Positions 3,626-31,436 of a DNA stretch of 40,276 nt are shown piece by piece; within the stretch, counting starts at the first letter, position 1, and each line of letters begins with the position of its first letter. Where the stretch lies: positions 1-40,276 of the forward strand of contig NZ_JACXJA010000066.1 in NCBI RefSeq assembly GCF_014705615.1, written 5' to 3'. Source of the stretch: Paenibacillus oceani. GTDB lineage: Bacteria > Bacillota > Bacilli > Paenibacillales > NBRC-103111. A program made the position numbers and the translations under genes. Under the pieces are notes generated by a model, which worked only from the letters and a program-made list of their open reading frames with translations, had not been told where the DNA came from and made no database searches.

Positions 3626-3826
3626 TCGAATAGGGTTGGTTTGCAGCCTTTATTTTGACCGAAAACCGGCTTGGACGCGGAATACGAGCGGTTTGAAGCT
3701 GCTAATATCCTCAAATAAGGCGCAGACCGGGCCAGCTGGCTGAATAAGGGGTACAAACCGCCTCTATTTGACTCTTTCCTCCCAAGATGGCGAAAATAGA
3801 GGTCCAAAGAGACTCTTATAGGGTTA
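3626..3826. repeat. Full copy (B) of the 52-bp-period inverted-repeat element
   Basis: Four related ~26 bp units begin at 3629, 3681, 3743 and 3795. Units 1 and 2 are in plus orientation (GCGGTTTG-type core), units 3 and 4 in minus orientation (CAAACCGC-type core). Spacing is exactly 52 bp within each arm and 62 bp between arms. The whole forms an imperfect long inverted repeat that aligns end to end, including the central spacer, with 31235-31436. The short reading frames across it have no ribosome sites and are not credible genes. Confidence 0.8.
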
Positions 3827-3899
3827 GGTAGCCTTCATGTCGTCTCAACAGCGCCCAACGCGATCGGTTCGTAAGATTCGGAAGAAACTGGTTTACGAG

Positions 3900-4101
3900 C
3901 TTCATTCGAAATCGAGTCGTTCCCGCACAGCACAACCTCATCAACGACCCGGCTGGAGCGAAGGTACCGGTTCCTTTCTACTCACCAACGTACGGGATTG
4001 CTCGTTAAAGGACTGTCCGGACTTTAGTGTCGTTTCTTAACGTTGTCTACTTAAAAGGGGATACTATCCTCATTACCGGACGGTTTTTCTTAAGAAATCG
4101 A
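3900..4101 (+). repeat. Second dispersed intergenic repeat, copy 1
   Basis: Blocks CGGCTGGAGCGAAGG (3950-3964), ACGTACGGGATTGCTCGTTA (3988-4007) followed by AAGGACTGTCCGG, and CGGTTTTTCTTAA (4080-4092) recur in the same order at about 11280-11417. In this copy about 60 bp separate the last two blocks, against about 5 bp in the other copy, with a CCGGA at both edges of the extra segment. No protein-coding explanation is apparent. Confidence 0.65.
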
Positions 4102-4404
4102 GGAGAAACGGTTCGAGGTAGGGTACGAAAAAAAAGTAAAATGTTTGCGACAGCCCCTTGTCCGTCAATCCGCCACGTGCCGGCACAAAGTCACCCTTCG
4201 AACTTTTTCCCAATACGGATTACTCGGTTCATTCGGCTCCGCAATCTCCGCACTGATCGCTTCCGCTAACCGGGAATGGAATTCCGGAAATGAGGAATCG
4301 TTCCTTCAACCGGGTAAATTTCTCACCTTGCTTGAAACGGGGCTGAAGATCCGGAGCGGTTATTTCGAGCCTGCCCCAAGTTACTTTCACTAAAGCATAA
4401 AAAA
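4102..4404 (+). other. Unassigned spacer with a doubtful ORF tail
   Basis: Between the repeat and the sigma-54 promoter region one frame is open to 4393 (from about 4145). Its last 60 codons look fairly protein-like (ending LKIRSGYFEPAPSYFH), but there is no ribosome site, no recognisable family and the upstream part is repeat-like. It may be the remnant of a lost gene; I do not call it as one. Confidence 0.25.
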
Positions 4405-4441
4405 GCGGAGAGCAGCTATCCGGACTTAGAAAAGCTGCCGC
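4405..4441. promoter_or_regulatory. Inverted repeat upstream of the sigma-54 promoter
   Basis: GCGGAGAGCAGCT (4405-4417) is partly complementary to AGCTGCCGC (4433-4441). It lies about 60-95 bp upstream of the -24/-12 promoter, a typical distance for an activator site, but it could equally be an old terminator stem. Confidence 0.3.
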
Positions 4442-4497
4442 ATGTGAAGGGACATTTGTCGCGCGCGGAGAACGCTTCGGCTGGATGCTCTTCGAAT

Positions 4498-4513
4498 TGG
4501 CACGATATTTGCA
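4498..4513 (+). promoter_or_regulatory. Sigma-54 (SigL) -24/-12 promoter
   Basis: TGGCACG-atat-TTGCA matches the sigma-54 consensus TGGCACG-N4-TTGCW at every defined base, with the invariant GG (4499-4500) and GC (4511-4512) correctly spaced. Transcription should begin near 4524, about 30 bases before the first gene of the CoA-transferase operon. Sigma-54 promoters require an AAA+ enhancer-binding activator, and none is encoded in the window. Confidence 0.88.
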
Positions 4514-4554
4514 TACCTATATAAACTGAACACGTGAGAAGGAAGGTGGAGTTT

Positions 4555-5247
4555 TTGAAACGAGTATGCGAATCGTTCCGCGAAGCGATTGCGGACATCC
4601 CGGACGGCGCCACGATTATGGTCGGCGGGTTCGGTCTCGTCGGCATTCCGGAAAATTTGATAACAGCCTTGTCTGAATCGGGCATTTCCGGTCTGACTGT
4701 CATTTCCAACAATTGCGGCGTGGACGACTGGGGGCTCGGGCTGCTGCTGCGCAACCGGCAAATCCGCAAAATGATCGGTTCTTACGTCGGAGAGAACAAG
4801 GAGTTTGAACGTCAGCTGTTGTCGGGCGAATTGGAGGTCGAGCTGCTGCCGCAAGGAACGCTGGCCGAGCGGATTCGCGCCGGAGGAGCGGGCATTCCGG
4901 CTTTTTACACCTCGGCGGGGGTTGGGACACCGATTGCCGAAGGTCGGGAAGTGAGACGGTTCGGGGATAAGGACTACGTGCTGGAAACCGCGCTGACCGC
5001 CGATTTTAGTCTGATTCGTGCGATGCGGGGCGACCGGATGGGGAATTTGATCTACAACAAGACGGCACGTAATTTCAATCCGGTGATGGCGGCAGCCGGA
5101 GCGGTCACGATTGCTGAAGTCGAGGAGCTGCACGAAGTGGGAGCCTTCGATCCGGACCGCATCCATACGCCCGGCGTTTATGTGCAGCGGCTTGTGACGG
5201 GCGCCCAGCAGAAGCGGATCGAAAGACGGACGACAAGGAGCGGATGA
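4555..5247 (+). CDS. scoA: CoA-transferase subunit A (3-oxoacid CoA-transferase type)
   Basis: This is the alpha subunit of a family I CoA-transferase, which with the next gene moves CoA from a donor such as succinyl-CoA to a short-chain acid such as acetoacetate. Visible signatures are '[20 protein letters not shown]' near the N-terminus (the glycine-rich family I motif) and '[15 protein letters not shown]'. The C-terminal part '[20 protein letters not shown]' is also typical. About 230 residues is the normal length. I take TTG at 4555 as the start because AAGGTGGAG sits just upstream; GTG codons at 4534 and 4546 are in frame but precede or overlap that site. The gene is first in a sigma-54-driven operon and is followed closely by subunit B. 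The symbol reflects family membership; whether the acceptor is acetoacetate, butyrate or beta-ketoadipate cannot be decided. Confidence 0.88.
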
Positions 5248-5250
5248 TCG

Positions 5251-5928
5251 ATGAAGGCACAAGCTTTTGGCAAAGAAAACGTTCGGGAGCGGATCGCCCG
5301 CCGGGCGGCGCGAGAAATCCGCGATGGGTATTACGTCAATCTGGGAATCGGGATGCCGACGCTGGTCGCGAATTATTTGGAAGCGAACCGCGAGGTGCTG
5401 CTGCAGTCGGAGAACGGACTGCTCGGCATCGGCCCGTATCCGCAGGAGACGGAGCTTGACCCGGACCTGATCAATGCGGGCAAAGAAACGGTCACCGCCG
5501 TGACGGGAGCCGCATTCTTCGACAGCTCGGAGTCGTTCGCGATGATTCGCGGCGGTCATATCGATCTCGCCATACTCGGCGGCATGCAGGTATCGGGCCA
5601 AGGAGACCTTGCCAACTGGACGATCCCCGGACAGATGGTAAAAGGAATGGGCGGCGCAATGGATCTGGTGCACGGAGCAAAACGGGTCGTCGTCATCATG
5701 GAGCAGGTAGCCAAGGACGGCAAGCCGAAAATTGTCCGGGCATGCAGTCTGCCGCTGACCGGGCAAAACGTGGTGCACCGGATCATCACCGAACGCGCGG
5801 TGCTGGACGTGACGCCGGAAGGCTTGCGTCTGATCGAGCTTGCGGCGGGTTATACGGAAGACGACGTCCGTTCCGCGATGGAGCCGGAGCTGATTGTTGA
5901 CGGCGACGTTGTGACGGATTCTTATTGA
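5251..5928 (+). CDS. scoB: CoA-transferase subunit B (3-oxoacid CoA-transferase type)
   Basis: The beta subunit of the same family I CoA-transferase, 225 residues. The catalytic glutamate that forms the CoA thioester is in the SENG motif (Glu54), and '[14 protein letters not shown]' and '[14 protein letters not shown]' are typical of the family. It starts three bases after the stop of subunit A with a GGAGCGG-like site inside the end of that gene, implying translational coupling and equal subunit amounts. An ATG at 5244 is out of frame and not used. Subunits A and B should form a heterotetramer in the cytoplasm. Confidence 0.9.
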
Positions 5929-5982
5929 CCGCCGGCCGAATATGCGGAGAAAATGGTCTACAGAGAAGGAGCGGTATACACG

Positions 5983-6972
5983 ATGGAACAAACGATAGCC
6001 GTCCTCGGCGCGGGTACGATGGGACACGGAATCGCCCAGCTGTTGGCGCAATCCGGCAGCCGTGTCTATTTGTATGATCCGTCGGAGGAGGCGCTGGAAC
6101 GCGCCATGCAGAAAATACGGTCCAATGTGGCTGTCATTCGGTCGGAACGATGGGGCGATTGTCCGTCGGAAGACCAGGTACTGGACCGGATCGTATGCAC
6201 GCCGGACCCGGTGGAGGCGGTGGCCGGCGCTTCGATCGTAATCGAGGCGGCGCCGGAGAAGCTGGAGCTGAAGCGGGAGCTGTACCGGTTGATAGAACGC
6301 GGAATCCGAGCCGATGCGATAGTCGCTTCGAACACGTCGTCTTATGTGCCGGAGCAGTTGGTGGAAGGAATGACGTTTGCGCATCGTTTTGTCGTGGCGC
6401 ACTTTTTCAATCCGGCGCATCTCGTGCCGCTGGTTGAGATCGTGCTTCACCCGCAGACGAGCCGGCAAACGGCGGAGCCGCTGATCCGGCTGCTGAAAAC
6501 GTGCGGCAAGTCGCCGGTTGTGCTGAGTGCGAACGTCGCAGGTTTTATCGCCAATCGTCTGCAGGCGGCATTGCTGCGGGAAGCGGTTCACCTGCTGGAG
6601 AGCGGCGTGGCCAGCGCCCGCGAGATCGATCTGGCAGTGACGGAAGGCCCGGGCTTGCGATGGGCGTTAAGCGGTCCGTTGGCAACGGCCGATTATGGCG
6701 GTCTGGACGTATGGGAGCGCGTATCGGACCGGTTATTTCCGGAGCTGGATACGCGGACGGAAGCTTCCGAGTCGATCCGGCGTCTCGTACGCGGGCAGCG
6801 GCTTGGGGTGAAATCGGGCGGCGGATTTTTTGAATATCCGGACGGTGAAGCGAACGGCGCGACTCACGGACTTCCAGACGGCGTACAAGACGCTGTAGAG
6901 CAGCGCGACCGCAAGCTGATTCGGCTGATGATGGTTAAGAACGATACCCGGACAGGAGGAGGCGCCCAATGA
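5983..6972 (+). CDS. 3-hydroxyacyl-CoA dehydrogenase
   Basis: NAD-dependent dehydrogenase of about 329 residues converting 3-hydroxyacyl-CoA to 3-oxoacyl-CoA (and the reverse). The Rossmann motif GAGTMG is at residues 9-14, the catalytic His-Glu region is visible as 'AHFFNPAHLVPLVEIV', and the C-terminal helical domain contains 'GVKSGGGFFEYP'. The start at 5983 follows AGAAGGAGCGG at the right spacing; an in-frame ATG 30 bases upstream lacks a site. The stop overlaps the thiolase start (ATGA). Length and motifs fit the short-chain 3-hydroxybutyryl-CoA dehydrogenase class, not the fused FadB type. The operon context points to oxidation of 3-hydroxybutyryl-CoA to acetoacetyl-CoA. Confidence 0.9.
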   Translation: MEQTIAVLGAGTMGHGIAQLLAQSGSRVYLYDPSEEALERAMQKIRSNVAVIRSERWGDCPSEDQVLDRIVCTPDPVEAVAGASIVIEAAPEKLELKRELYRLIERGIRADAIVASNTSSYVPEQLVEGMTFAHRFVVAHFFNPAHLVPLVEIVLHPQTSRQTAEPLIRLLKTCGKSPVVLSANVAGFIANRLQAALLREAVHLLESGVASAREIDLAVTEGPGLRWALSGPLATADYGGLDVWERVSDRLFPELDTRTEASESIRRLVRGQRLGVKSGGGFFEYPDGEANGATHGLPDGVQDAVEQRDRKLIRLMMVKNDTRTGGGAQ

Positions 6973-8228: not shown

Positions 8229-8251
8229 TATACGAAGGGCTGTCGCCGAAA

Positions 8252-8340
8252 GTGTCGCTATGACAGGGTGATGTCCCGATTTTCAAACGAAAGGACCTCA
8301 AATTCCGCTGTAGCGCGGAGACAGAGGTCCTTTTTCTCGA
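8252..8340 (+). terminator. Two-hairpin terminator, dispersed family copy 2
   Basis: The small palindrome GGGTGATGTCCC (8266-8277) is followed by a hairpin in which GAAAGGACCTC (8289-8299) pairs with GAGGTCCTTTTT (8324-8335) and TCCGC pairs with GCGGA inside, ending in a T-run. It closes the ketoacid operon and belongs to the family seen at 3400-3490 and 31522-31615. Confidence 0.82.
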
Positions 8341-8526
8341 ACCAGTCAAAGTAGGGCGGTAAAAAATCACAAACCGGCCTGGTTTCTTCACTGGAACTTA
8401 ATGGCTGTTTGCTTAAGGAAGGCCGCGAGGAAGAAGCCGGAAATAGGGCCAAGGCAACCGGTTCGCAGCTGATCAGAAAGCGATTTTCACTCGCTACCGG
8501 CCCCCTCTGTTACTTGGAAAACGTTG
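8341..8526. other. Spacer before the ABC transporter operon
   Basis: No gene, known RNA or clear repeat is seen here. A stretch at 8342-8365 resembles the tails after the other family hairpins (tails at 3514-3540 and 11042-11065 share ACCRTRCTAAAG followed by G-rich sequence), but the match is short. Confidence 0.3.
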
Positions 8527-11279: not shown

Positions 11280-11420
11280 GGTTCGTTAGTCATGCGACCG
11301 CAAAAACAACACGACTAAGGGTGAGCGGCTGGAGCGAAGGACCCAATCCCTCCCACGCACGAACGTATGGGTTTGCACGTTAAAGGACTGTCCGGGACCC
11401 GTACGGTTTTTCTTAATTTA
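11280..11420 (+). repeat. Second dispersed intergenic repeat, copy 2
   Basis: CGGCTGGAGCGAAGG (11326-11340), then ACGTATGGGTTTGCACGTTA with AAGGACTGTCCGG after it (11364-11396), then ACGGTTTTTCTTAA (11403-11416), match the ordered blocks of 3900-4101. The repeat ends about 45 bp before the MarR promoter. Confidence 0.65.
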
Positions 11421-11461
11421 TCAGAATCTTTCCTCAAGGAGAAGATAGATGAAATCTGCCA

Positions 11462-17118: not shown

Positions 17119-18108
17119 ATGCATATTTTACGTGCAGTTGTCGTCGGAGCGGGGGCGATCGCGGGCCTTCATTTGCGGACGCTTGCGGCAAGCGAACGAA
17201 CCGAGCTTGTCGGCGTCGCGGATATTTCCGGGGAGCGGGCCCGCTTGGCGGCCGAAGCTTACTCGATCAAGCCTTACACGGACTACAGGGCGATGGTGCG
17301 GGCGGAGAAACCCGACATTGTCGTTATTACGCTGCCGCATGTTTTGCACAAAGAAGCGGCAATTTGGTGCGCGGAGCAAGGGTGCCACGTGCTGCTGGAG
17401 AAGCCGATGGCGATGAATGCGCGCGAATGCGCGGATATCAACGCCGCGGCTGCCCGCTGCGGCATTGTGCTGGCCGTGGGACATATGCAGCATTATTTTG
17501 CGGAAAATGTGAAAGCGAAGCAACTGATTCAGTCCGGCAAGCTGGGGAGGCTCGTGACGATCATCGATCGGCGCTACGGGTATTATTTCGACGAGAAGCG
17601 TCCGGCCTGGTTTCTGGATAAGGAAACTTCCGGCGGAGGGATCGTCATCAATATCGGCAGTCATTCGATCGATAAAATCCAGTGGTTGACGGATTGTCAA
17701 ATAACGAGCGTTAAAGCGGAACTGACGTTTTACGGCGAACGGGGCGATGTCGAAGGAAGCGCCAGCTTGCTTATGCGCACTTCGCATGGGGCGACAGCTT
17801 CCGTCTCGCTCTTCGGCTATCGCGGCGTGCCGCCGGCCAATGAGACGGAGCTGTTGTTTACGGACGGAGCGCTGAAAATCGTGGCGAGAAAAGGGCTTTG
17901 GATCAGCGGTGCAAACGGCTACGAGCTTGTCGACACAGGCGCAAAGGGCGAACCGTTCGCCCCGCAGTGGGACGATTTGCTGAACGCCATCGGGCAAGGC
18001 TCGGAGCTGTCGATAACGGGAACGTATGCCCAAACCGTCTCCGCCGTCGTCGATGCCGCATATCGCTCCCACGAAACCGGCAGAGCGGAGGAAGTTGCCG
18101 TCATCTGA
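17119..18108 (+). CDS. Gfo/Idh/MocA-family NAD(P)-dependent oxidoreductase
   Basis: A 329-residue cytoplasmic dehydrogenase. The N-terminal Rossmann motif is 'VVVGAGAIAGLHLRTLA' (residues 7-23), the catalytic EKP lysine motif is at residues 94-96, and the second catalytic region is 'NIGSHSIDKIQWL' with His182 and Asp185. Family members oxidise or epimerise sugars, inositols or sugar acids. The ribosome site GAGGAG lies eight bases before the ATG. Position between an SBP and a secreted lyase suggests it processes the imported sugar or uronate. The substrate cannot be assigned. Confidence 0.9.
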   Translation: MHILRAVVVGAGAIAGLHLRTLAASERTELVGVADISGERARLAAEAYSIKPYTDYRAMVRAEKPDIVVITLPHVLHKEAAIWCAEQGCHVLLEKPMAMNARECADINAAAARCGIVLAVGHMQHYFAENVKAKQLIQSGKLGRLVTIIDRRYGYYFDEKRPAWFLDKETSGGGIVINIGSHSIDKIQWLTDCQITSVKAELTFYGERGDVEGSASLLMRTSHGATASVSLFGYRGVPPANETELLFTDGALKIVARKGLWISGANGYELVDTGAKGEPFAPQWDDLLNAIGQGSELSITGTYAQTVSAVVDAAYRSHETGRAEEVAVI

Positions 18109-18161
18109 TGTTGGCTAGCCGCAGACGCTCGAAGATAAACGTTTTCGAGGAGGAATGGCAA

Positions 18162-21100
18162 TTGCGCAGATGGATGGTCTGGACCGTGGTGTTGATGATG
18201 ATCGTGCCGTACGGTTTGCTGGGCCCGGGAAATCGGACATCGGCCGCCGGGCAAACGATTGTTGAGGAAGGTGAAGCTCCGATCGAGGCGTATACGAACA
18301 AGTGGAACGTAATTTCTGCATGGACCGCCGCTCCCGTCATCGACGGGAAATTGGATGAGGCGGCATGGAGCGGCGCCGCGCCGCTAGACGATTTCCGCAC
18401 GGCCTATTACAACGAGCCGGCGACCGGCGGCATCGCCTATAAAGTGGCTTACGACGAGACGAATTTGTACATCGGAGGAACGTTTGACGAGGAAGAAAGG
18501 GGCGTACTGGAACGGATCGAAATCGTGATCAGTCCGCAGACGGCAGGCGGGCTGCATTATGTGGCGTCCCTCCCGGTCACTCCTTCGGGAAGGACGTTCA
18601 CGACGGTCTGGAACCAGACGCTCGACGGTGTAGACCCGCAAAGGGTGAAAATCAGCGCCTTCTCCCAAGAAACGTCGTTGGCGGGCGGTGTCTTTACGGT
18701 CGAAGCGGCCATTCCGTTATCCGCCTTCGGGTCCGCCGTCGTCTCGCCGGGCGCAGAATGGCGGATGAATATCATCCACTTGCATCATCTGAATACGAAG
18801 CCGCTCTCCTCCTGGGTACCGATCCGCACGTCGAGCTTCTGGGATACGTCGGGGGCTGTAAAGGTGCCGGCCAATGTCGTGGACGAAGGGCGGCTCGGCT
18901 CCGTCTTTTTCGAACGAACGACGCAGGGCGTTGCTTGGACGCTACTCGAACCGGTGCTCGACTATACCGGTTTTGCGACGAAGCGGCTGTCCTTTGACGG
19001 GACCAGTCTGGAACCGGATGATACTGTCTTTGAGCTGAAATGGATAGATCCGCTCGGCAACGTGACGACGCTTGACGACGTGCAGGCCGCTTGGGAAGGA
19101 AGCCTCGGCGTGCTGACGTTCTCGCATCCCGGGCCGCTTCGCGACGGCATGTACCAGCTGCAAATACTGGCGTGCGAAGACGATCCGGCCGATTGTCGGT
19201 TCGCCGTACTGACCTTCGACAGGGACAGCCTGATCGACGCGGGCATCGAAGATGCGGAGCAGGCGTCTCCCGCCGGCGATGTCGTTCCGGTGACGCCGGC
19301 CCCCGCCTCGGCGGCCGTCGAGAACATACTCGAATTGATCCCGGACCGGGTCGGCTTCCGCTTCGCCGGCTTGCCGGAAATGCCGGAGCTGAATCCGGAC
19401 GGGTTATACACGCTGTCCGCCGACGGCAAAAGCATGGTTGCGCCCAAAACCGGCACGGCGTATCCGAACACGCAGTATCCGGAAAACGGCACGGTGACCG
19501 CCGTCAACCGAAAAGGGGAAACGCTGGAGTATCCGTATTACGAAGACGCCGAAGGCAAGCGATACTTTTTATCCGCGCATTTGTGGTATTTGCAAAAAGC
19601 GTATACGCTCAATCAGACGAATGCGATCGCCAAGACCGACCCGCTCGGTGCGGCACGCCTGCTGTACCGGTTTGCGCAAGTGTACGAAGGCTACGTGCCG
19701 ACGACCGATTATAACTGGTATAACTATCCGATCAACATCACCTCCGGCCCGCCGTTCAACTATTGGGGCGGCATGTGGAACCGCTGGTCGGTATCCGACC
19801 TGAACAGTCTTCGCCCGCTCCTGCAAGCTTACATGGAAGTGAAGAAGTCGGACGCCCTGCAAGTGCTGAGCCAGGAAGTCGGGGAAGACGTCGAGAAGAA
19901 GCTGGTCGAGCAAGTAGTGATGCCGTCCGTCGATTATGCGCTCAGCTATCCGACGACGCTCGGCAATATGGACTATACCCAATGGCTCGGCCTGATTGAC
20001 GCCGGCAAGGCGATTGGGCAGCCTGACTACATTCATAACGTGGTGGAATGGATGAGGGAATACGTCGACAGGCGGTATAGGTCCGACGGCTTCTGGTACG
20101 AAGTGGCGCCCTCCTACCACGTGCAGTCGACCGACGGTCTGAATTTGGCGATCGGGCAACTGCAGGGGTACAGCGACCCGACCGGGTACGTTTCACCGCG
20201 TTCGGGACTGCATTTCGACAATTTGGATATGTATAACGATTTTCCGATCATCGGCAAGGCGAAGGAAATCCCGAACCTGCTTTCCTTTCCGAACGGCCAA
20301 CTGCTGCCCGTCCAGGATTCGTGGGCGTCGGATAAAGCGAAGGCGCCGCGGTCGGACGTTGGCTCTATGCTGCTGCCCGATGCCGGCATCGGCCGACTGT
20401 CCGGCGGAACGGGCGCGGACCGGACACAGCTTTACCTGGAGTTTACGCCGAAGACCGGGCATACGCACTACGATCCGTTGAACTTGAATTTGTACGCGCA
20501 GGGCCAGGAATTGCTGCCCGATCTCGGGTACACGTATACGAAATACCGCTATTTCACCCTGTCCACGCTCGGCCATAACACCGTCGTCGTCAACGGCAAA
20601 AACATGACCACGGCCGGCGCGGGCAAAGACGGCGGGGCGATTGAGGCCTTCGCCTCCGTCGGCGCGTTCCAGGCAATGCGGGCAAGCGAAGAAAACGCTT
20701 ACGCGGAGACGGAAACGTACAGCCGGGAGCCGTGGTTCGTTCCGTTCGCCGGCGGGAATGGCGGTGAAGGCTACGTGCTCGATCTGTTCCGCGTAAAGGG
20801 CGGCAGCCGCCATGAATATACGTTGCAGGGCGACGCGAACCATGACGCCGAATTCGAGACGGACCTGCCGCTTGAATCGTACGGCCCGTACCTGCTGCCG
20901 CCGGGAACGGAAGTGCACGAAGCGGAATCCTTCAACGAGAGCGGCACGGCGGCAGGGAATTATCCCGCCTACATTTATGTGAACGATGTGCAGAAGGCCG
21001 AACTGTCGGGCGACAAGTACGAAGTGACGCTGGAGACGTCCGACAACGGGGCGGACAAAGCGAAGCTGAAAATTACCGGTTTGCTGGAGGAAGGGAACAA

Positions 21101-24100
21101 CGAGCTGTATTTGGGCCGTTCTCCTTCCATTCGCTCCACACGGTTGTTCGGGAAAAGCAAGGACACGAACGACGAAGCGGTCCAATACGACATGCCGAAG
21201 CTGGTGTTGAGACGGGAAGCAGCCAACTTGAACAGCACGTTCGTGACGGCGTTGGAGCCGTATACGGGCGCTGCCGGGGCGAAGATCGATTCGATCAAAC
21301 GGCTGGAGCCAAGCCAGTCGCCGGAAGGCGCAGTAGCAGTGAAGGTGACGTACGGCGATGTCACGGACTATTTGCTCAGCTCGCCGGAGCATCCGGACCA
21401 GCCGCTCGTCGTCGGAGACATCACGATGCGCGGAGAGATGGGCTTTATCCGGGTGGAGGACGGCGTCGTACAGAACATGTACCTTGTCGGCGGAACCGAA
21501 CTGAAGAAGGGAAGCAAGGAGATCAGCGCGCAAGGCTCCGTCACCGGGACGATTACCGGCACGAAACGCAAGGCGAACGGCGATCCGTACGACGCGATCG
21601 TGACGAGCACGCCTATCGATCCGGCGATTGCCGCCCTCCTGAAAGGGAATTACGTCATCGTAACGCATCCGGACGGATCGACGAACGGATACAAAGTCGG
21701 GGACATCCGCAGCGAGGCGGGACAAACGGCGATCGTCCTGGCCGAATACGATCCCGGATTCGAGCTGAAAGCGGACGGGACGTCGCAGATGATGTTTTAT
21801 CCGGCGAAAAGCTGGACCGGCACGCATACGTTCAAAATCGCCAACGTGGAAGCGCTGGACCGCAATCCGCTGCAAGCCGTCACGGTGGAAGCGCCGCAGC
21901 GGGATTTGCCGAAAGGCGAGAAGGTTCCGCTGGCCGTGTACGGGGTGAACCGGGACGGCAGTCCCGCGGTGTTGTCCGCGGGAGAAACGGTTTTTACGAG
22001 CAGCGATCCCGCCGTCCTGGCGGTCGACGCAAGCGGCAACGTCACGGCGGTCGGTGACGGGACCGCCACGGTGAGCGTCGAGGTGACGTTGAACGGAGTG
22101 ACGAAGGCGGCAAGCGTCGTCATGTCGTCGCAATCCCGGTCGCTGCAAACGTACAATATCGTCGATCTGGACATCGCCGAGCAGACGGTGCCGACGCTGT
22201 ACGTGGCTGAAACGAATACGGTGCAGCTTGAGGCGAATGCGGGCGGACAGAGCATTGCGTTCGACTTCGAGGTTGCGGAGGACGCCGCGTATGCCATCGG
22301 GATCAAGCCGTTCAAGGCGGGCAGCTACGGGAAGTACAAGATCAGCGTCGACGGCACGCAGCTCATGACCTACGACTTCTATAGCAGCATCGGCGGAGCG
22401 AGCACCGCGTTCGAGACGATCGGGACGATGCCGTTAACGGCGGGCACGAACCGGATCGCGCTGGTGGGTGAAGGGAAAAACGCAAGCTCCAGCAACTACA
22501 AATTCGGGCTGATCCAGTTGGAAATCAAGGAGTCGTTGCCCGACGCTCCGGCCTTACAGGCGGCGGCCGGGCCGATCTATCCCGGGCAGGCGTTCGCCAT
22601 GACGTTTGCCGATTCCACCGCATGGCGGAGCGAGATATCCGGCGTGACGGTTGACGGCGTCCCGCTGGCGAGCGGCCAATATACCGTCTCGCCGGGCAGC
22701 ATCGCCTTCGCTGCGGATGCGCTGCCGGCCGGAGAAGGCGCGGCCTGGATCGTCGTGCAGGCGACGGGATACCGGCACGCGGCCGCGGAGCAGCGGATCG
22801 CATCCGCCGCCGCGCTGAGCGGGCTTGCGGTCGGCCCGGGCAGGCTGAGCCCGCCGTTTGCGCCGGAGACGCTCGACTATGCCGTGCTGGTCGACGAAGC
22901 CGTGTCCGCGCTAACGGTCACGGCACAGACGTACCGGCCCGACGCCGTCATCACGGTTGGCGGGCAGACGTACGGCAGCGGGTCGACGATCCCGCTCGCC
23001 CTCCAGCCCGGCGCCAACCCGCTGTCGCTCGCCGTTGCTGCTTCGGACGGCAGTTCCGCCATCTATACGGTGACGGCTTACCGGGATGTCCGCGAATTCG
23101 AGCCGATCGGCACTGTAGCGGGGGCCGTGTACGGTGCGGGCGGCGCTCCTTTGGCCGGAGCGGTCTTGCGGTTCGTCGGGCAAGCGGAAGTGGCTGCGAC
23201 GACGGACGAAGACGGCCGCTTCGCGATTGCAGAAGTGCCGAACGGGAGCTGGCAGCTTGCGGTGACGAAGCTGGATTATCTGGATGGTCTGTCTAACGTA
23301 TTCGAAGTGACGACAAGGCAGACAACGTCCGTCGACGTGACGCTGCAACGGTCGTCGGTGCCGGTTTTGTCCGGCGTGACATACGGGGCGGCGGCGATCG
23401 GTGACCCGGTGTCGGCGACGATGTCGCGCGACGGGGTGCTGCATCTCGTTCCGGCCGGTACGGCGGCGACGCAGGCGGCGATTGAAGCGGCGTCGGTCGT
23501 CACGGTCGGCGGAGCGGTGTACGGCACGCGGGCGACGGCTGCGGCGGGAGTCGCGGCCGCACTGGACACGACCGATTTTGCCTCCGGCCTGTACGTGGCA
23601 TACGCGATCGACGGCGCCGGCAACGTGTCTGCGGCGTCGGAGCGAATTGCAATCATCCCGCGCAGCCTGGCGGCGATCGACAATACGAGTCCGTTCGTGA
23701 TGTTTTCCGGCTCTGGGACGACGACGACGAGCGCCAGCCTCCTGTACGGCGGCAGCGAATGGATCGGCACGGCGAAAGGCGCGACCGTGCGGGCGCCGTT
23801 TTACGGGACACGGGGGCAAGTGCTCGCCACGAGGGCTTCGAACGGCGGCTTGGCGGACCTCTATGTGGACGGCGTTTACCGGACAACTTACGACTTCGTC
23901 AAGCGCGGCACTGCGCAATACCAGGCGGTTGTATTCGACACGGGGCTTTTGCCGCTTGGCGCACATACGGTGGATATCGTGTCCAAGGGAGAAATCGGGG
24001 CAAACTCGCTGAACAACTGGATTCGGTTCGACGCGCTTCTGGTCAACGGATACGAGTCGATCGGCACCGTAACGGGGACTGTGTACGGTGAGGAGGGCGC

Positions 24101-25010
24101 TCCATTGACCGGAGCGGTCGTGCGGCTTGTCGGGCAAGCGGAAGTCGCGGCGGCGACGACGGATGGAGACGGCCGCTACACGATCGCGAACGCGCCGGGC
24201 GGAAGCTGGCAGCTTGCCGCGATGAAGCTGGATTACGTAGACGGTTTGTCTGACGTATTCGCCGTGGAGAACGGACAAACAACGTCCGTCGCCGTGACGC
24301 TGCAACGGTCGCCGGTTCCGGTTTTGTCCGGCGTGACGTACGGGGCGGCGGCGATCGGCGACCCGGTGTCGGCGACGATGTCGCGCAGCGGGGTGCTGCA
24401 TCTTGTCCCGGCCGGTACAGCGGCGACGCAGACGACGATTGAAGCGGCGTCCGTCGTCACGGTCGGCGGGGCGGTGTACGGCGCTCGGGCGACGGCTGCG
24501 GCGGGAGTCGCGGCCGCGCTGGACACGACCGATTTCGCCTCCGGCCTGTACGTGGTGTACGCGATCGACGGCGCCGGCAACGTGTCCGCGGCGTCGGAGC
24601 GGATTGCAATCATCCCGCGCAACTTGGCGGCGATCGACAATACGAGTCCGTTCGTGATGTATTCCGGCTCCGGAACGACGACGACTAGTGCCAGCCTGTA
24701 CGGCGGCAGCGAATGGATCGGCACGACGAAAGGCGCGACCGCGCGGGTGCCGTTTTATGGGACGCGGGCAAAGGTGCTCGGAACGTTGGCGCCCAACGGC
24801 GGCTTGGGCGACATTTATGTGGATGGCATTTACCGGACGACGTATGATTTTATGAGGCGAGGCACTGCACAAATCCAGTACGTCGTGTTCGATACGGGCG
24901 TTTTGCCGCTTGGTGCGCATACGATCGAAATACGGGCGACAGGGGAGAAAAATCCGGATTCGCAGAACATTTGGGTCCGGTTTGACGCGCTGCTGGCCAG
25001 CGGATTTTAG
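18162..25010 (+). CDS. Giant secreted multidomain heparinase II/III-like polysaccharide lyase
   Basis: About 2282 residues from TTG 18162, chosen because GAGGAGG lies eight bases upstream and a signal peptide follows directly (MRRWMVWTVVLMMIVPYGLL, export end near residue 31). The frame is open back to 17898, but that part overlaps the oxidoreductase gene. Domains in order: CBM9-like module (~48-236); Ig-like segment (~247-357); alpha/alpha toroid (~467-740) with 'PSYHVQSTDG' near 650; heparinase II/III beta-sandwich with 'GHTHYDPLNLNLYAQGQELL' near 765 and 'LGHNTVVVNG' near 803; BIG2 Ig-like domain (~1240-1325); CBM6/35-like module (~1327-1457); DUF1533/HID-like domain (~1463-1548); cadherin-like beta-sandwich (~1552-1641); then two tandem ~318-residue repeats, each opening with a carboxypeptidase-regulatory-like domain. 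No LPXTG or SLH anchor is seen, so it is probably released or held by its binding modules. The fold predicts eliminative cleavage of an acidic polysaccharide; the substrate is unknown. Confidence 0.85.
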   Translation: MRRWMVWTVVLMMIVPYGLLGPGNRTSAAGQTIVEEGEAPIEAYTNKWNVISAWTAAPVIDGKLDEAAWSGAAPLDDFRTAYYNEPATGGIAYKVAYDETNLYIGGTFDEEERGVLERIEIVISPQTAGGLHYVASLPVTPSGRTFTTVWNQTLDGVDPQRVKISAFSQETSLAGGVFTVEAAIPLSAFGSAVVSPGAEWRMNIIHLHHLNTKPLSSWVPIRTSSFWDTSGAVKVPANVVDEGRLGSVFFERTTQGVAWTLLEPVLDYTGFATKRLSFDGTSLEPDDTVFELKWIDPLGNVTTLDDVQAAWEGSLGVLTFSHPGPLRDGMYQLQILACEDDPADCRFAVLTFDRDSLIDAGIEDAEQASPAGDVVPVTPAPASAAVENILELIPDRVGFRFAGLPEMPELNPDGLYTLSADGKSMVAPKTGTAYPNTQYPENGTVTAVNRKGETLEYPYYEDAEGKRYFLSAHLWYLQKAYTLNQTNAIAKTDPLGAARLLYRFAQVYEGYVPTTDYNWYNYPINITSGPPFNYWGGMWNRWSVSDLNSLRPLLQAYMEVKKSDALQVLSQEVGEDVEKKLVEQVVMPSVDYALSYPTTLGNMDYTQWLGLIDAGKAIGQPDYIHNVVEWMREYVDRRYRSDGFWYEVAPSYHVQSTDGLNLAIGQLQGYSDPTGYVSPRSGLHFDNLDMYNDFPIIGKAKEIPNLLSFPNGQLLPVQDSWASDKAKAPRSDVGSMLLPDAGIGRLSGGTGADRTQLYLEFTPKTGHTHYDPLNLNLYAQGQELLPDLGYTYTKYRYFTLSTLGHNTVVVNGKNMTTAGAGKDGGAIEAFASVGAFQAMRASEENAYAETETYSREPWFVPFAGGNGGEGYVLDLFRVKGGSRHEYTLQGDANHDAEFETDLPLESYGPYLLPPGTEVHEAESFNESGTAAGNYPAYIYVNDVQKAELSGDKYEVTLETSDNGADKAKLKITGLLEEGNNELYLGRSPSIRSTRLFGKSKDTNDEAVQYDMPKLVLRREAANLNSTFVTALEPYTGAAGAKIDSIKRLEPSQSPEGAVAVKVTYGDVTDYLLSSPEHPDQPLVVGDITMRGEMGFIRVEDGVVQNMYLVGGTELKKGSKEISAQGSVTGTITGTKRKANGDPYDAIVTSTPIDPAIAALLKGNYVIVTHPDGSTNGYKVGDIRSEAGQTAIVLAEYDPGFELKADGTSQMMFYPAKSWTGTHTFKIANVEALDRNPLQAVTVEAPQRDLPKGEKVPLAVYGVNRDGSPAVLSAGETVFTSSDPAVLAVDASGNVTAVGDGTATVSVEVTLNGVTKAASVVMSSQSRSLQTYNIVDLDIAEQTVPTLYVAETNTVQLEANAGGQSIAFDFEVAEDAAYAIGIKPFKAGSYGKYKISVDGTQLMTYDFYSSIGGASTAFETIGTMPLTAGTNRIALVGEGKNASSSNYKFGLIQLEIKESLPDAPALQAAAGPIYPGQAFAMTFADSTAWRSEISGVTVDGVPLASGQYTVSPGSIAFAADALPAGEGAAWIVVQATGYRHAAAEQRIASAAALSGLAVGPGRLSPPFAPETLDYAVLVDEAVSALTVTAQTYRPDAVITVGGQTYGSGSTIPLALQPGANPLSLAVAASDGSSAIYTVTAYRDVREFEPIGTVAGAVYGAGGAPLAGAVLRFVGQAEVAATTDEDGRFAIAEVPNGSWQLAVTKLDYLDGLSNVFEVTTRQTTSVDVTLQRSSVPVLSGVTYGAAAIGDPVSATMSRDGVLHLVPAGTAATQAAIEAASVVTVGGAVYGTRATAAAGVAAALDTTDFASGLYVAYAIDGAGNVSAASERIAIIPRSLAAIDNTSPFVMFSGSGTTTTSASLLYGGSEWIGTAKGATVRAPFYGTRGQVLATRASNGGLADLYVDGVYRTTYDFVKRGTAQYQAVVFDTGLLPLGAHTVDIVSKGEIGANSLNNWIRFDALLVNGYESIGTVTGTVYGEEGAPLTGAVVRLVGQAEVAAATTDGDGRYTIANAPGGSWQLAAMKLDYVDGLSDVFAVENGQTTSVAVTLQRSPVPVLSGVTYGAAAIGDPVSATMSRSGVLHLVPAGTAATQTTIEAASVVTVGGAVYGARATAAAGVAAALDTTDFASGLYVVYAIDGAGNVSAASERIAIIPRNLAAIDNTSPFVMYSGSGTTTTSASLYGGSEWIGTTKGATARVPFYGTRAKVLGTLAPNGGLGDIYVDGIYRTTYDFMRRGTAQIQYVVFDTGVLPLGAHTIEIRATGEKNPDSQNIWVRFDALLASGF
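23100..25010 (+). repeat. In-frame tandem duplication inside the giant lyase gene
   Basis: Unit 1 starts at 23100 and unit 2 at 24054, a period of 954 bp (318 codons). The segments 23355-23700 and 24309-24655 are almost identical at DNA level, including synonymous sites; the rest is more diverged. Unit 1 has one extra codon at 'LLYGG'. The uneven similarity suggests a recent duplication or gene conversion of the middle part. Confidence 0.9.
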
Positions 25011-26999: not shown

Positions 27000-27138
27000 G
27001 CACCATTCCAACTTTCGCTTGATGTCGTAAAAGATTGACGTAATCCGGCTAAAGCCAGCCGGCCATGGCCGCATACCGCACACCGCACGCGGCTGCAGCC
27101 GGTTGCTTCCCTATGTCGTCAGCGGTTATTCTTACTTG

Positions 27139-27168
27139 TATCATACCGAAAAAGAAAACGGTTGTATA
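27139..27168. promoter_or_regulatory. Candidate operator between the divergent GntR-SBP and SBP genes
   Basis: TATCATACCG (27139-27148) and CGGTTGTATA (27159-27168) form an imperfect inverted repeat around an A-rich centre. Its place in the divergent intergenic region suits a GntR operator, but no second site is known to support it. The rest of 27000-27228 shows no gene. Confidence 0.3.
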
Positions 27169-27228
27169 GGGAGTGGGGCTGCTTTAAAGCGGATTAAATT
27201 CCGAATGATTCCTTCGAGAAAAAATGAA

Positions 27229-27258
27229 TTGACAGCATATCGGGTTCGGTTTTATGAT
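27229..27258 (+). promoter_or_regulatory. Sigma-A promoter of the second SBP operon
   Basis: TTGACA (27229-27234), 18 bp spacer, TATGAT (27253-27258). The leader to 27459 is about 195 bases. The hexamers are the same as those ahead of the GntR-SBP gene at 14081. Confidence 0.75.
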
Positions 27259-27458
27259 AAAAGTACATCAAGGGGAATTACAGTATTCATCTATCATGAA
27301 AGTTGACGTTGAGGAGGTTGCGCAGCCGGTATTTATTATTTTAAGTGTGATTTGGAATCAAGGGGAATCAAATGTCGTCGCTTTAACAATATCAAATCAA
27401 GCGATCGGCCGATGTTAGCAAGCGGCCCGACGATCAGAGAAACGAAGGAGAGAATGCG

Positions 27459-28781
27459 ATGAAGCGGGGAACTGGGAAAACGGTAGCGATAAGTTTGTTG
27501 ACGGCGCTTCTTGTAAGCGCTTGTGGCGGCAATGCGGATAAGGGAGCCGGGAATCAGCAACCGGTGAATGACAAAGGGGCTGCGGAAGTAAAGGAAACCA
27601 GCTATCCGCCGGCTAAGCTGGTCATTTATTCGACGAGCGGCTGGACGGAGGAAGTTTTTAACGAGCGGTTTGGTAACGCTATCAAAGCGAAATTTCCGCA
27701 GCATACGTTCGAGTATATCCAATGGAAAAACGGGACCCGTTATCCTGATCTGATAGCCTCCAAGCAGGAAATCGACATCGTCTGGGAATCAATCGCCAAA
27801 TTCGCAAGCGGTCCTCTGGCGTTTAATATGCAGATGGATATGACGGAGCTGATGAAGACGCATAAGGTCGATACGAGCCGAATCGAGCCTACACTGATGG
27901 ACTTGATGAGGGAAATGTCCGGCGGCAAAATGTACGCGTTGCCCGTACAGAACAATACGACCGTGCTTTACTACAACAAAGACATCTTCGACAAATTCGG
28001 CGTTTCTTATCCGAAAAACGGCATGACCTGGGACGAAGTGTTCGAGCTGAATAAACGTCTGACGCGGACGGACGGCAATGTGCAGTATGTAGGGCTTGCG
28101 ATGCAGCATTATTTCCCGACCAATTCGTTATCGCTCGGGTATGTCGATCTGAAGACGGAGAAGCCGACGATCTCAAGCGAGAAGTGGAGGTCCTTGTACG
28201 AAGTGTACGGAAAGCTGGCGGAGCCGCAAGGTTACAAGGATAAAATCAGAGCCGGCAAGAAAATACCGGAAGTGATCTCCTTCGTCAAGGATAAAGACGT
28301 CGCCATGCTGGCGGCGCTGGCCAACACCCATATGACCCAGGACATGTCCTCGATGAACTGGGACGTCGTCAGTATGCCGGTGTTCAAGGAAGCTCCGCAA
28401 TCCGGTCCGCAAGGCTACCCGACCTACTTCGGCGTATCCGCGATCAGCAAAAACAAAGATCAGTCGATGGAGGTGATCAAATATTTGATCTCCGACGAGT
28501 TCCAATTAAGCGTATCCAAGACAGGAGCGCTGCCGGTAGTTAACACGAAGGAAATCAAGGACGCTTTCGCCAAGGATACGAACTTCAGCAGCAAAAACGT
28601 GAAGGTAGCTTTTTATGAGAAGTTTGCTCCGATCGCGCCGAAGACGATTTACGATCCAGGTGTCGAATCTGCCTATAACAAAAACATTATCAGCTACGCG
28701 CTGGGCGAAATGGACCTGAATACGCTGCTGCGCCAAGCCGAGGAAGCTGCTTCGAAATCGATCGCAGACCAGAAAAAATAA
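27459..28781 (+). CDS. ABC sugar transporter solute-binding lipoprotein (SBP family 1), second copy
   Basis: A 440-residue lipoprotein with a short signal, lipobox VSAC (Cys22) and a Gly/Asn-rich linker. The solute-binding domain shows 'TTVLYYNKDIFDKFGVSYPK', 'GMTWDEVFELNKRL' and a C-terminal helix region typical of SBP_bac_1. AAGGAGAG precedes the ATG. No permease genes follow; the next gene is a cytoplasmic lyase-like protein. It is homologous to the SBP at 15691 and to the relic at 15486. Its gene is divergent from a regulator with the same fold, which suggests the two recognise related ligands. Confidence 0.9.
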   Translation: MKRGTGKTVAISLLTALLVSACGGNADKGAGNQQPVNDKGAAEVKETSYPPAKLVIYSTSGWTEEVFNERFGNAIKAKFPQHTFEYIQWKNGTRYPDLIASKQEIDIVWESIAKFASGPLAFNMQMDMTELMKTHKVDTSRIEPTLMDLMREMSGGKMYALPVQNNTTVLYYNKDIFDKFGVSYPKNGMTWDEVFELNKRLTRTDGNVQYVGLAMQHYFPTNSLSLGYVDLKTEKPTISSEKWRSLYEVYGKLAEPQGYKDKIRAGKKIPEVISFVKDKDVAMLAALANTHMTQDMSSMNWDVVSMPVFKEAPQSGPQGYPTYFGVSAISKNKDQSMEVIKYLISDEFQLSVSKTGALPVVNTKEIKDAFAKDTNFSSKNVKVAFYEKFAPIAPKTIYDPGVESAYNKNIISYALGEMDLNTLLRQAEEAASKSIADQKK

Positions 28782-28838
28782 AGAAATGGCACATGCGGTC
28801 TGAAATAACAAACGATCGACCTGGAAGGAGGAGCGGGA

Positions 28839-31193
28839 GTGACCGTGACTGATGCAACAAAAAAGTCCGAGCGGATGGCCGGTATCGAGGATTATACGAT
28901 TTTGCTGGAAAGATGGGTTCGGGGGGCAAAGCCTTATCTGTATGTCTGCCCGGATCGCCCGGACCTGGCCTGTTACGGTACGGGAGAGAACGGCTGGGGC
29001 GTCCAGACGAATCAAAAAGCGTTTGCCGCGTTCGCCGTGTTGGCGGAAGCCCCGCAATTCGATGAGCGGCGTGCCGGCATCAGCCGGCTTGAGGTCAGAG
29101 AGACCGCTCTGAGTCTGCTGCGATACAGCCTTCATACGCATCTTGTGGGAACGCACACCTGTACGGACGGAACCGCATGGGGTAATACGTGGATCAGCGT
29201 TCTGGGGATGGAGCGGATGATGCATGGGGTCGAAGCGGTCGAGGGTTATATGACCGACGAGGAGCGCCTGCTGCTGAGACGGGTCATGCTGTCGGAGTGC
29301 GACTGGCTGCTCGATCATTGCGAGATCGTCGCCGGCTTGACGGCGAAGGAAGGACGCAACAAGCCGGAGAGCAATTTGTGGAACGGCGCGTTTCTGCACC
29401 GGACGGCGATCCGTTATCCGGACGCCCCGAGAGCTGAGGAGTACCGCGACAAGGGCACCGACTTCCTGATCAATTCCGTATCCGTTCCGGCAGATGAAAG
29501 CTGCGAAGAAATCGTCGACGGCCGGAAAGTGTCAGAGCGGTATGTTGGGGCGAATTTTTTCCCTTCGATGGCGCTGAATCATCACGGCTATCTGAATGTC
29601 GGTTATATGGTCATCTGCTTGTCGAATATAGCGATGCTTCATTTCGACTGCCTCGGCAAAGGGATACGGGCGCCGGAGTCGCTGTACCGGCACGCCCGGG
29701 AGCTGTGGGATGCGGTAAAGTCGTGCACGTTCCCCGACGGCCGGCTGCTGCGGATCGGCGGCGATACGCGAATTCGCTACACGTATTGCCAGGACTACGT
29801 GATTCCGGTCTGGCATATGATCGCGAACTTGTTCGGCGATGCGGAGTGCGCGAAGCTGGAGGACGGCTGGCTGCGCCAAATCGTCAAGGAGATGGACGCC
29901 TCGGGGGACGGCACGTTCCTGTCGTTCCGCTGCGGCGCTCTGCTCCGCGAATCGCCGCTTTACTTTACCCGGCTCGAATCGGACCGGGCGGCGGCGTTGT
30001 CGATGGGGCTTGCCTGGCGGGAGCTTGCTTACCGCGGCGTCACGCAAGGCGCGTCTGCTGCGGAAGCCGTGCCACCTGTGCAACACGTGCCAGCTGGCGT
30101 CAACACGCCGCTCCGCGAAACGGATGAAACAGCGGGGACGGCCGGGTCCGCGAGTCCGGACTCCTGGCATGACGCCTACCACGGCGCGTATTTGCAGAGG
30201 GGCAAGCAGCGGATCGCTTCATGGGTATGGGAATCGGCGGAGAAGCCGCAAGGGCTGATCGTGCCTGCCGGCTCCAGCGACATGGCCGAATGGCGCGAGA
30301 ACCTGTCCGGACAGCTGCAGGGGTACGGCCTGTTTACGGAGCAAAAGCTGGATGGGCATACGGGGCACCTGTTTCCGGGCGGATTCGTTACGTCAGGCAG
30401 TACGACCCTATTCACCCGGGGGCTCCTCGCGGAAGGACAGCAGGATCAGGAGCTTGCCCGCAGCCGGCTCGTATGCGCGGCGCTGCCCGACGATACGCAT
30501 ATGCTCGTGCTGCAATATGTCGCCGCCTCGGGGCAGCGGACGATGCTAAGGTCGGTCAAAGGGTTGAACCTGCTTATTCCGAACGATCTGTTCAACGGCG
30601 GACGCCGCGACTATTACCATGAGCACGGGGGGCGTTCCGTAACCGGCCTTGTTAACGGGGAGGAGATCGTCTCGACCGGGTCCCGCTGGCTTAATGTCGA
30701 CGACAAGCTGGGAGTTGTAGCGGCTTACGGGACGGACGGGATCTCGATCCACAGCCCGGGCCGAAGAAATGTCGGGCTGAAGACCAATCTACGGACGGCG
30801 GGGCTGGAGAAGACGTTGTATGCCGACACCGTCTGCGGTCCTTGCCGGACAGAAGCTATATCCGTACCGGCGGGCGAGCCGCTGCTTGATACGGGGTATC
30901 TTCTGCAAGCCGGCCTTCCTAGGCAGAAGACTGCCGCCTATGCCGGGGACGACCGCCTCTTGTCCGTGATCCGGCATGAAGCCGGAGTGATCCGGGCGGT
31001 AAGCGTCCGGGGAGCGGACGGTCATCTTTACGTACTTGCGGCGAATTTCGGAACAGAAGACGGCAAGCTTCCTATTCCGCTGCCGGGAGCGGCGGCCGAT
31101 CTTGTTACCGGTGAGGAGCTGAGCGCAGATCTTGACGGCTCGCTCGTGGTGGAGCTGGCAGGGGGAACCGCACGGCTGCTGAGGATGTTCTAG
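28839..31193 (+). CDS. Cytoplasmic toroid-plus-beta-sandwich protein, putative oligosaccharide lyase or hydrolase
   Basis: 784 residues from GTG 28839, five bases after AAGGAGGAG. There is no signal peptide, so it acts in the cytoplasm. The first ~400 residues are helical and resemble an alpha/alpha toroid, with conserved-looking strings 'ESNLWNGAFLHRTAIRY' (near 177) and 'NHHGYLNVGYM' (near 247; Asn, His and Tyr are candidate catalytic residues by analogy with toroid lyases). A low-complexity linker lies at about 405-440. The C-terminal ~340 residues are beta-rich ('AYHGAYLQRGKQRIASWVWE', 'YYHEHGGRS', 'VVAAYGTDGISIHSPG'). This two-part layout matches heparinase/hyaluronate-lyase-like enzymes, but I cannot name a PL family. 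Next to an SBP it probably degrades an imported oligosaccharide. Confidence 0.7.
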   Translation: MTVTDATKKSERMAGIEDYTILLERWVRGAKPYLYVCPDRPDLACYGTGENGWGVQTNQKAFAAFAVLAEAPQFDERRAGISRLEVRETALSLLRYSLHTHLVGTHTCTDGTAWGNTWISVLGMERMMHGVEAVEGYMTDEERLLLRRVMLSECDWLLDHCEIVAGLTAKEGRNKPESNLWNGAFLHRTAIRYPDAPRAEEYRDKGTDFLINSVSVPADESCEEIVDGRKVSERYVGANFFPSMALNHHGYLNVGYMVICLSNIAMLHFDCLGKGIRAPESLYRHARELWDAVKSCTFPDGRLLRIGGDTRIRYTYCQDYVIPVWHMIANLFGDAECAKLEDGWLRQIVKEMDASGDGTFLSFRCGALLRESPLYFTRLESDRAAALSMGLAWRELAYRGVTQGASAAEAVPPVQHVPAGVNTPLRETDETAGTAGSASPDSWHDAYHGAYLQRGKQRIASWVWESAEKPQGLIVPAGSSDMAEWRENLSGQLQGYGLFTEQKLDGHTGHLFPGGFVTSGSTTLFTRGLLAEGQQDQELARSRLVCAALPDDTHMLVLQYVAASGQRTMLRSVKGLNLLIPNDLFNGGRRDYYHEHGGRSVTGLVNGEEIVSTGSRWLNVDDKLGVVAAYGTDGISIHSPGRRNVGLKTNLRTAGLEKTLYADTVCGPCRTEAISVPAGEPLLDTGYLLQAGLPRQKTAAYAGDDRLLSVIRHEAGVIRAVSVRGADGHLYVLAANFGTEDGKLPIPLPGAAADLVTGEELSADLDGSLVVELAGGTARLLRMF

Positions 31194-31234
31194 TCGGAGG
31201 GTCCGGCCGGTTCGTTCCTCGATGGCATGGAGGA

Positions 31235-31436
31235 GCCGATAAGAGCGGTTTGTACCCTCTATATGGTGTGAAACCAGCTTGGGCGGGGAAATAAGAGCGG
31301 TTTCCAGCTCCTAATATCCGCGAGAAGGGGGCAGGCCCGGCTAACTGGCAGAAATAAGAGGCACAAACCGCCCTTATTCGTCTCTGACTTGCCGATATGC
31401 CGAAAATAGAGGGTGCAAAAGGCTGTTATTCTTTGT
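31235..31436. repeat. Full copy (C) of the 52-bp-period inverted-repeat element
   Basis: Units begin at 31238, 31290, 31353 and 31405: 52 bp within each arm and 63 bp between arms. Units 1 and 2 carry AAGAGCGGTTT, units 3 and 4 the reverse form (GGCACAAACCGC, GGGTGCAAAAGGC). Unit 1 is complementary to unit 4 and unit 2 to unit 3, so the whole could fold as one ~200-base hairpin. The alignment with 3626-3826 runs through the spacers too. Confidence 0.82.

Follow-up and report, generated by a model that had tools for sequence, protein, structure and literature searches.

The intergenic DNA of Paenibacillus oceani contains a repeat made of four imperfect palindromic units that lie approximately 5, 6, and 5 helical turns apart, and three copies of it, one of them partial, lie in the window (the whole 40,276-nucleotide stretch of DNA analyzed here). 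The relevant features of the window are as follows:

12-84, plus strand: domain V, marking the 3′ end of a group II intron, at the contig start (Rfam RF00029, 53.8 bits)
119-206, strand ambiguous (44.0 bits on the minus strand and 38.5 on the plus strand with the element profile): third element, interrupted by the group II intron, with its remaining two units at ~125 and ~177
3545-3616, plus strand: upstream flank module, adjoining copy A and common to other copies
3617-3832, plus strand: full four-unit element, copy A, with units at ~3629, 3681, 3743, and 3795 (profile 182 bits)
3834-4090, plus strand: downstream flank module, common to other copies, with a terminator-like hairpin close to its end
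31232-31442, plus strand: full four-unit element, copy B, with units at ~31238-31264, 31290-31315, 31353-31378, and 31405-31430 (profile 196 bits)

The four units of each full copy can be read directly at these positions, each unit is an imperfect palindrome as the original prediction had described, and none of the three copies overlaps a called gene. Copy B begins 39 bp past the called stop of a plus-strand gene (ending at 31193) and lies 187 bp ahead of a called convergent gene on the minus strand (31630-32817). The last part of the downstream flank module recurs without a core at 11322-11450. A recognizable shared flank is found upstream in 33 of 103 copies and downstream in 32 of 103, and flank similarity between copies weakens with distance from the core. 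The third element had been described as a half copy; its two units are present, but judging from the adjoining domain V they are what remains of an element that a group II intron has split, with the junction (read by eye) near 84/85. Partial elements adjoin five of the nine group II intron matches in the genome; those five represent one intron type, which adjoins elements at 5/5 places and interrupts them at more than one unit.

Searches of the 8.05-Mb genome identified 483 matches to the unit motif with ≤2 mismatches, compared with 47 for a reversed control, and 263 matches to the unit-3 motif with ≤3 mismatches, compared with 0 in the control. Because unit 1 can also match the unit-3 motif on the opposite strand (121 matches derived from 94 elements in the DNA examined), the 263 matches correspond to ~204 elements, and we estimate that the genome carries ~200-350. 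From 213 rows, we aligned 103 non-redundant four-unit copies after dropping opposite-strand duplicates, repeats, short copies, and those scoring <90 bits; one copy count took copies scoring >40 bits. The 40 sampled tiles were chosen around listed copies and deliberately took in contigs with mixed orientation. The gene-context count dropped copies with <60 bits, <140 model columns, or an orientation margin of <15 bits, and 0 of 92 copies overlapped a called gene by >30 bp. With further copies this abundant, the element is not a chance pattern, and the observation is confirmed in a stronger form than it was first given.

Spacing between units is far from random, and it is preserved although the sequence between them varies, as had been claimed. 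Neither a lack of further copies nor random spacing, the two outcomes that would have told against the original prediction, was observed. Units 1 and 2 lie 52 bp apart in 98 of 102 copies (the others fall within 50-54), as do units 3 and 4 in 95 of 102 (range 51-60); the central gap between units 2 and 3 has its modal length of 62-63 bp in 81 of 103 copies (range 59-70). Thus 52 bp, or 5 helical turns, alternates with 62-63 bp, or 6, and the resulting lattice of 52/63/115/167 was seen across 1.56 Mb of tiles from the same genome. The spacers are just 63% identical across copies, with length nearly fixed. One spacer subtype, which by eye has balanced +1/-1 changes, is still 52 bp long in 18 of its 19 copies and 54 bp in the other. 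Among copies with a common downstream flank (35 of 36 were used), the core has 74% identity and 0.37 indels per copy, with the caveat that retrieval by a whole-core profile favors intact cores, whereas the flank has 54% identity and 8.8 indels per copy, a value that serves as the sole yardstick for presumably unconstrained change and may be inflated by over-counted gaps at that identity. Within 43 flank copies, some lacking a core, conserved anchor pairs 48-56 columns apart stayed at the modal distance in just 19-45% of copies. Because spacer sequence drifts while spacer length hardly changes, the geometry appears to be selected, more so than the sequence of the spacers.

The same 52/62-63 alternation occurs in other Paenibacillus species, and relatives also have spacings of 50, 51, 59, 61, 66, and others. 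When 84,980 species genomes were scanned for exact matches, with spacings of 36-66 allowed, 29 matches were returned, all of them in Paenibacillus and 27 of them spaced at 52. The unit-pair pattern, applied to 104 family genomes, matched in the P. oceani genome alone (16/16 at 52 bp); both it and a simple palindrome expression were too strict for relatives. Using full-element blastn against 59 genomes, we found only short pieces outside the P. oceani genome, in 3 genomes.

We somewhat favor the explanation that the element is a BIME-like phased array of putative protein-binding palindromes. The palindromes would serve as double-stranded binding sites kept on one face of the helix by 5- and 6-turn spacings; the units would be occupied side by side by a symmetric protein in several copies or by a single multimeric complex, and the bound protein would bend the DNA at gene ends, wrap it, or bridge it. 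The geometric part of the original suggestion of a protein array on one DNA face gains support, in that a six-turn spacing alternates with 52 bp and length is kept; the binding part is a prediction from the palindromic units, and the helical face is the presumed object of selection. This reading also draws on the placement of copies outside genes and away from divergent gene pairs and on their orientation with GC skew. Set against it are the other spacings in P. oceani and its relatives, ortholog-like sites that lack the element, and the weak pairing signals described below.

An alternative that we consider unlikely, albeit worth weighing, is that the units act as single-stranded structures, forming hairpins either in the 3′-end RNA as a stabilizer or terminator or in lagging-strand DNA. 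The palindromic units themselves are compatible with this, as are the folding energies of 20 copies (-62 to -88 kcal/mol, values without a shuffle baseline), and some group II introns prefer hairpins, so the one intron type within elements at all five places may point the same way. The single long hairpin that had been envisaged, pairing unit 1 with unit 4 and unit 2 with unit 3, is not supported: the covariation scan shows no prominent helix of this kind, unit 1 pairs with unit 3 instead in the best fold of one copy, and by eye the consensus of spacer 1-2 does not complement that of spacer 3-4. Covariation in support of pairing is weak at most. The strongest antidiagonal peak among the 103 copies (z 6.3) is an artifact of a spacer-subtype column pair, 50-57. 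Several weaker windows lie just above the parallel-diagonal control maximum of 3.46, namely 41-56/124-109 (3.85), 53-68/90-75 and 68-83/180-165 (both 3.7), and the unit-3 palindrome (3.57, with 67% of cells paired), and mutual information adds a handful of long-range pairs, among them 45-121 and 22-48. Inner palindrome positions pair above shuffles in relatives, but so do 3 of 4 off-register controls, and in the P. oceani genome they pair no more than shuffles. RNAalifold analysis of 63 copies returned no consensus pairs on the plus strand and -2.2 kcal/mol on the minus strand, in a test of low power since column shuffles also gave nothing; at the gathering score, Rfam had no match for the element in the window. 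Furthermore, loops would not be expected to have exact spacer lengths.

Gene context bears on the same alternative. The left-hand gene is co-directional with the element in 74 of 84 copies, which favors this alternative, although 38 of these are convergent pairs and agree by definition. Based on a simple rule of our own, terminator-like sites occur inside the core in 9 of 74 copies and within 350 nt past the element in 12 of 74; however, in 33 of 74 such a site separates the upstream stop from the element (compared with 1 of 74 in one shuffle each), and because it precedes the element, many copies may lie outside the upstream mRNA.

We assign a similarly low probability to the possibility that the element is a non-autonomous mobile element and nothing more, its spacing a transposase requirement that brings the host no gain. 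The ~200-350 copies and the flank modules shared past the core would suit mobility. So would orientation: the direction of the element matches GC skew in 82 of 92 copies, including 33 of 38 convergent-flanked copies, a pattern that insertion into single-stranded DNA of the lagging strand would be expected to produce. At ortholog-like sites in two relatives, there was no lattice pair for 9 of 9 checkable elements (13 matches among 170 flank proteins, covering 9 elements, at element-free sites too diverged for junction reading), so the host apparently does not need the element at those sites. One relative's element locus maps to a P. oceani site whose nearest listed element is ~7-8 kb away. Conversely, P. 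mesophilus shares one site, where a conserved block lies ~359 bp from one element and 358 bp from the other. An inert copy should also collect indels as its flank does, and the core does not. No transposase was found near copies, and mobilization by a Y1/RAYT transposase gained no support: the genome has 5 matches to PF01797, which by eye look like IS200-like pieces, and none has an element within its 1.6-2.1-kb locus, although all are at or near contig ends with one side unseen.

That an ordinary transcription factor uses the units as operators is very improbable: ~26-bp symmetric sites at whole-turn spacings do resemble cooperative operators, but the copies are rare between divergent genes (2 of 84, compared with 94 of 404 background gaps), and in the named relatives no cluster with both flanks called lies there (0 of 12).

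The phased-array reading places the element beside repeat systems known elsewhere. E. coli BIMEs have two kinds of spacer, and REPINs are inverted palindromes dispersed as one unit and associated with RAYT transposases; the element here differs from REPINs in having four units rather than two and in having no Y1 gene seen near its copies. We know of no helical-phase lattice in BOX or RUP. These pneumococcal repeats resemble the element as small interspersed repeats of a Firmicute (PMC3049150). BIMEs occur at >100 copies per genome, in clusters whose palindromes are regularly spaced and alternate in orientation; they bind proteins including gyrase and IHF and are targeted by other mobile elements (PMC2817692, PMC1525189). 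The P. oceani element is similar in its number of extragenic palindrome copies (103 aligned) and in its regularly spaced unit clusters of alternating or inverted orientation; no RAYT gene was seen beside an element, at Y1 loci visible from one side. Regularly spaced REPs are reported for Xanthomonas, and the segments between REPs in Stenotrophomonas BIMEs are said to differ substantially in length (PMC2817692); here, in contrast, the spacers keep rigid lengths (52 and 62-63 bp) as their sequence drifts. REP palindromes carry a GTAG or CGTC tag at one end (PMC3733652); by eye, the element consensus has CGTC after unit 3 only, and units 1, 2, and 4 have no tag. Insertion sequences such as ISPsy8, which target REPs, have all of their copies at a fixed point within palindromic repeats (PMC1525189); the intron resembles them in its 5/5 association with elements, but it belongs to the group II introns and interrupts the elements at more than one unit. 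In the open-access literature searched, we recognized no description of these Paenibacillus repeats.

The element bears on what interspersed palindromic repeats such as BIMEs do and on whether their spacing matters. By analogy with E. coli BIMEs and their gyrase and IHF, the element could have a chromosomal or topological role, and its rows of predicted protein-binding sites may help organize the chromosome. A more specific version of this idea, which we put forward only speculatively, is that the elements are replication-polarized chromosome-organizing sites of Paenibacillus, on which a putative dedicated protein would form a phased filament or loop over palindrome arrays of 5 and 6 turns, with ~1 site per 23-40 kb oriented along each replication arm; GC skew would here stand as the proxy for replication direction. 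Natural copies whose spacers drift at fixed lengths provide a genetic signal for selected helical geometry, and the 52/62/52 array offers a concrete bait for finding the putative binding protein. The element would furthermore mark gene ends with a signal oriented by replication.

Direct reading of the sequence confirmed the original prediction of two full copies of the element in the window, each with its four palindromic units (u1 to u4) where they had been placed. Features of the window are as follows:

12-84: group II intron, the sole Rfam match at gathering score
119-206: partial third copy of the element
371-1408: separate gene with a Peripla_BP_2 domain (Pfam), near the AraC-type gene
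1650-3359: one gene with an AraC-type helix-turn-helix and a periplasmic-binding-protein domain (Pfam HTH_18, Peripla_BP_2)
3437-3490, 8233-8515, 31507-31607: second dispersed repeat, which carries a strong hairpin of terminator-like form (AAAGGACCTCA...TGAGGTCCTTT)
3617-3832: element, copy A
3950-4090, 11322-11450: repeat with CGGCTGGAGCGAAGG, then a GGACnGTCCGG terminator-like hairpin
17898-25010: very long open reading frame (2370 codons)
23088-24931: direct repeat (step ~955 bp) overlapping that frame, with a 779-codon frame on the opposite strand
31232-31442: element, copy B

The consensus of the second dispersed repeat has ends GGCTGTCCC / GGGACAGCC and resembles a MITE of an insertion-sequence family, perhaps IS1182. 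The CGGCTGGAGCGAAGG repeat occurs both with and without the four-unit core. On another contig (C54, 30057-30427), four identical palindromic units stand in tandem at 115-bp steps.

Within the 8.05-Mb genome (94 contigs), all 40 candidates scored from 218 first-look candidates of a blastn-type search matched the element at E ≤ 0.01, the window's own copy included. The unit motif at ≤2 mismatches gave 483 matches vs 47 for the reversed control, and the unit-3 motif at ≤3 mismatches gave 263 vs 0; because 121 unit-3 matches in the DNA examined came from 94 elements, the 263 correspond to ~204 elements. A profile search of 793 kb read end to end (contigs C1, C2, C8, and C11) identified 35 elements at E ≤ 0.001, and 28 of these scored ≥90 bits; extrapolated genome-wide, the two counts correspond to ~355 and ~284 elements, respectively. 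Together, these figures give an estimate of ~200-350 copies.

Among 103 aligned non-redundant copies, spacing between fixed points of the units was 52 bp for u1-u2 in 98/102 copies and for u3-u4 in 95/102; u2-u3 spacing was 62 in 81/103 and 61 in 16/103, and this central gap is mostly 63 when measured by palindrome start. A pair pattern permitting gaps of 26-50 returned a spacing of 52 in 16/16 matches. By arithmetic, 52/5 and 62.5/6 both come to 10.4 bp per turn. The core is ~191 bp long (exactly 191 in 43 of 63 copies, 190 in 12), and these 63 copies have a mean pairwise identity of 69% and 33.7 substitutions per copy from consensus. Modules outside the core are kept in 33/103 copies upstream and 32/103 downstream.

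For the 35 copies with a downstream flank, copy-to-copy identity is 54% in the flank, where each copy carries on average 3.0 deletions and 5.8 insertions; in the core of those copies it is 73.5% (83% in the units, 63% in the spacers), and the averages are 0.29 and 0.09, respectively. This 20-fold indel contrast is inflated by possible over-gapping of the flank by the aligner and by retrieval of copies with the core profile, although in our judgment these probably do not account for it. Conserved flank anchors 48-56 columns apart kept their modal distance in only 19-45% of 43 flank copies, some of which lack the core. One spacer subtype, which by eye combines an insertion with an offsetting deletion, has a spacing of 52 in 18/19 copies and 54 in the other.

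None of 92 well-scored copies (1.6 Mb) overlapped a gene called with a simple codon model by >30 bp. In the element's frame, flanking genes were convergent for 38 copies, both along the element for 36, both opposed for 8, and divergent for 2, with one flank absent in 8; the 404 background gaps of ≥200 bp, oriented to the leading strand, numbered 91, 192, 27, and 94 in the same categories. Among named relatives, 6 of 12 clusters with both flanks called were convergent and 0 divergent. Local GC skew matched element orientation in 82/92 copies (Fisher p = 7e-15), including 33 of the 38 convergent-flanked copies (p = 4e-6), where gene direction is uninformative, and agreed in 30/32 copies above 40 bits in the end-to-end stretches.

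Of 104 family genomes, 28 contain palindrome matches at ≤3 mismatches, against none in any genome for the reversed control; a lone match may be an unrelated hairpin. A looser search of four genomes, counting palindromes on both strands, gave 98 matches vs 30 in the control (G003), 172 vs 26 (G079), 224 vs 28 (G084), and 88 vs 14 (G089). Loci of several species show spacings of 52, 62/63, and 52 and longer alternations, the longest being an array of ~14 units in Paenibacillus sp. Root444D2 (locus L287; final intervals 59, 52, and 50). Across 19 named stretches of relatives, the 77 neighboring intervals <250 bp were 52 in 41 cases, 62 or 63 in 26, 61 in 2, and others in 8. An exact-match scan of 84,980 species genomes permitting spacings of 36-66, which may exclude records of the window's own genome, returned 29 matches spread over 19 stretches, every one titled Paenibacillus (spacing 52 in 27, 51 in one, 63 in one); some of these records duplicate genomes G003, G079, and G081 and so are not independent of the family-genome results.

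For nine elements checked, no lattice pair was found at ortholog-like sites, defined by flanking genes at ≥60% identity, in the DNA examined from relatives G003 or G002. At two conserved flank pairs, the gap was shorter where the element was absent. One G003 element lies ~359 bp from a conserved block that in the window's genome lies 358 bp from an element. Most checked copies were thus either acquired in the lineage of the window's genome or lost from the relatives; at least one copy looks older.

The genome has nine group II intron matches (RF00029), five of which have near-identical ends (52.6-53.8 bits). Each of these five (C5, C7, C8, C14, and the window) adjoins a partial element and lies at a contig end, so its other half is unseen. 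The profile places the break in unit 1 (C5, C8) or unit 2 (C7); extrapolation places it near the end of unit 2 in C14 and the window. The other four matches are outside elements, one ~110 nt upstream of an element.

Hairpins forming in lagging-strand DNA are a possible explanation that could account for both the polarity and the intron target. That the units act as hairpins more generally is weakened, since covariation tests gave only weak or confounded signals and terminator-like sites stand before the element in 33/74 copies (1/74 shuffled), as opposed to after it in 12/74 and inside it in 9/74. A purely selfish element leaves the upkeep of length after insertion unexplained.

An open-access literature search returned no report that we recognized as describing these arrays. 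The nearest known kind is the BIME, described in PMC2817692 as a set of REPs that are regularly spaced, alternate in orientation, and are bound by gyrase and IHF among other proteins, with RAYT transposases proposed to move them; REPs also serve insertion sequences as targets, according to PMC1525189. The Paenibacillus arrays have plan and place in common with BIMEs but differ in their fixed spacing. Geometry, constraint, placement, polarity, and distribution are observed here; our preferred reading, with moderate confidence, is that the elements are BIME-like phased arrays of DNA and protein, the binding protein and the role of the arrays being inferred.
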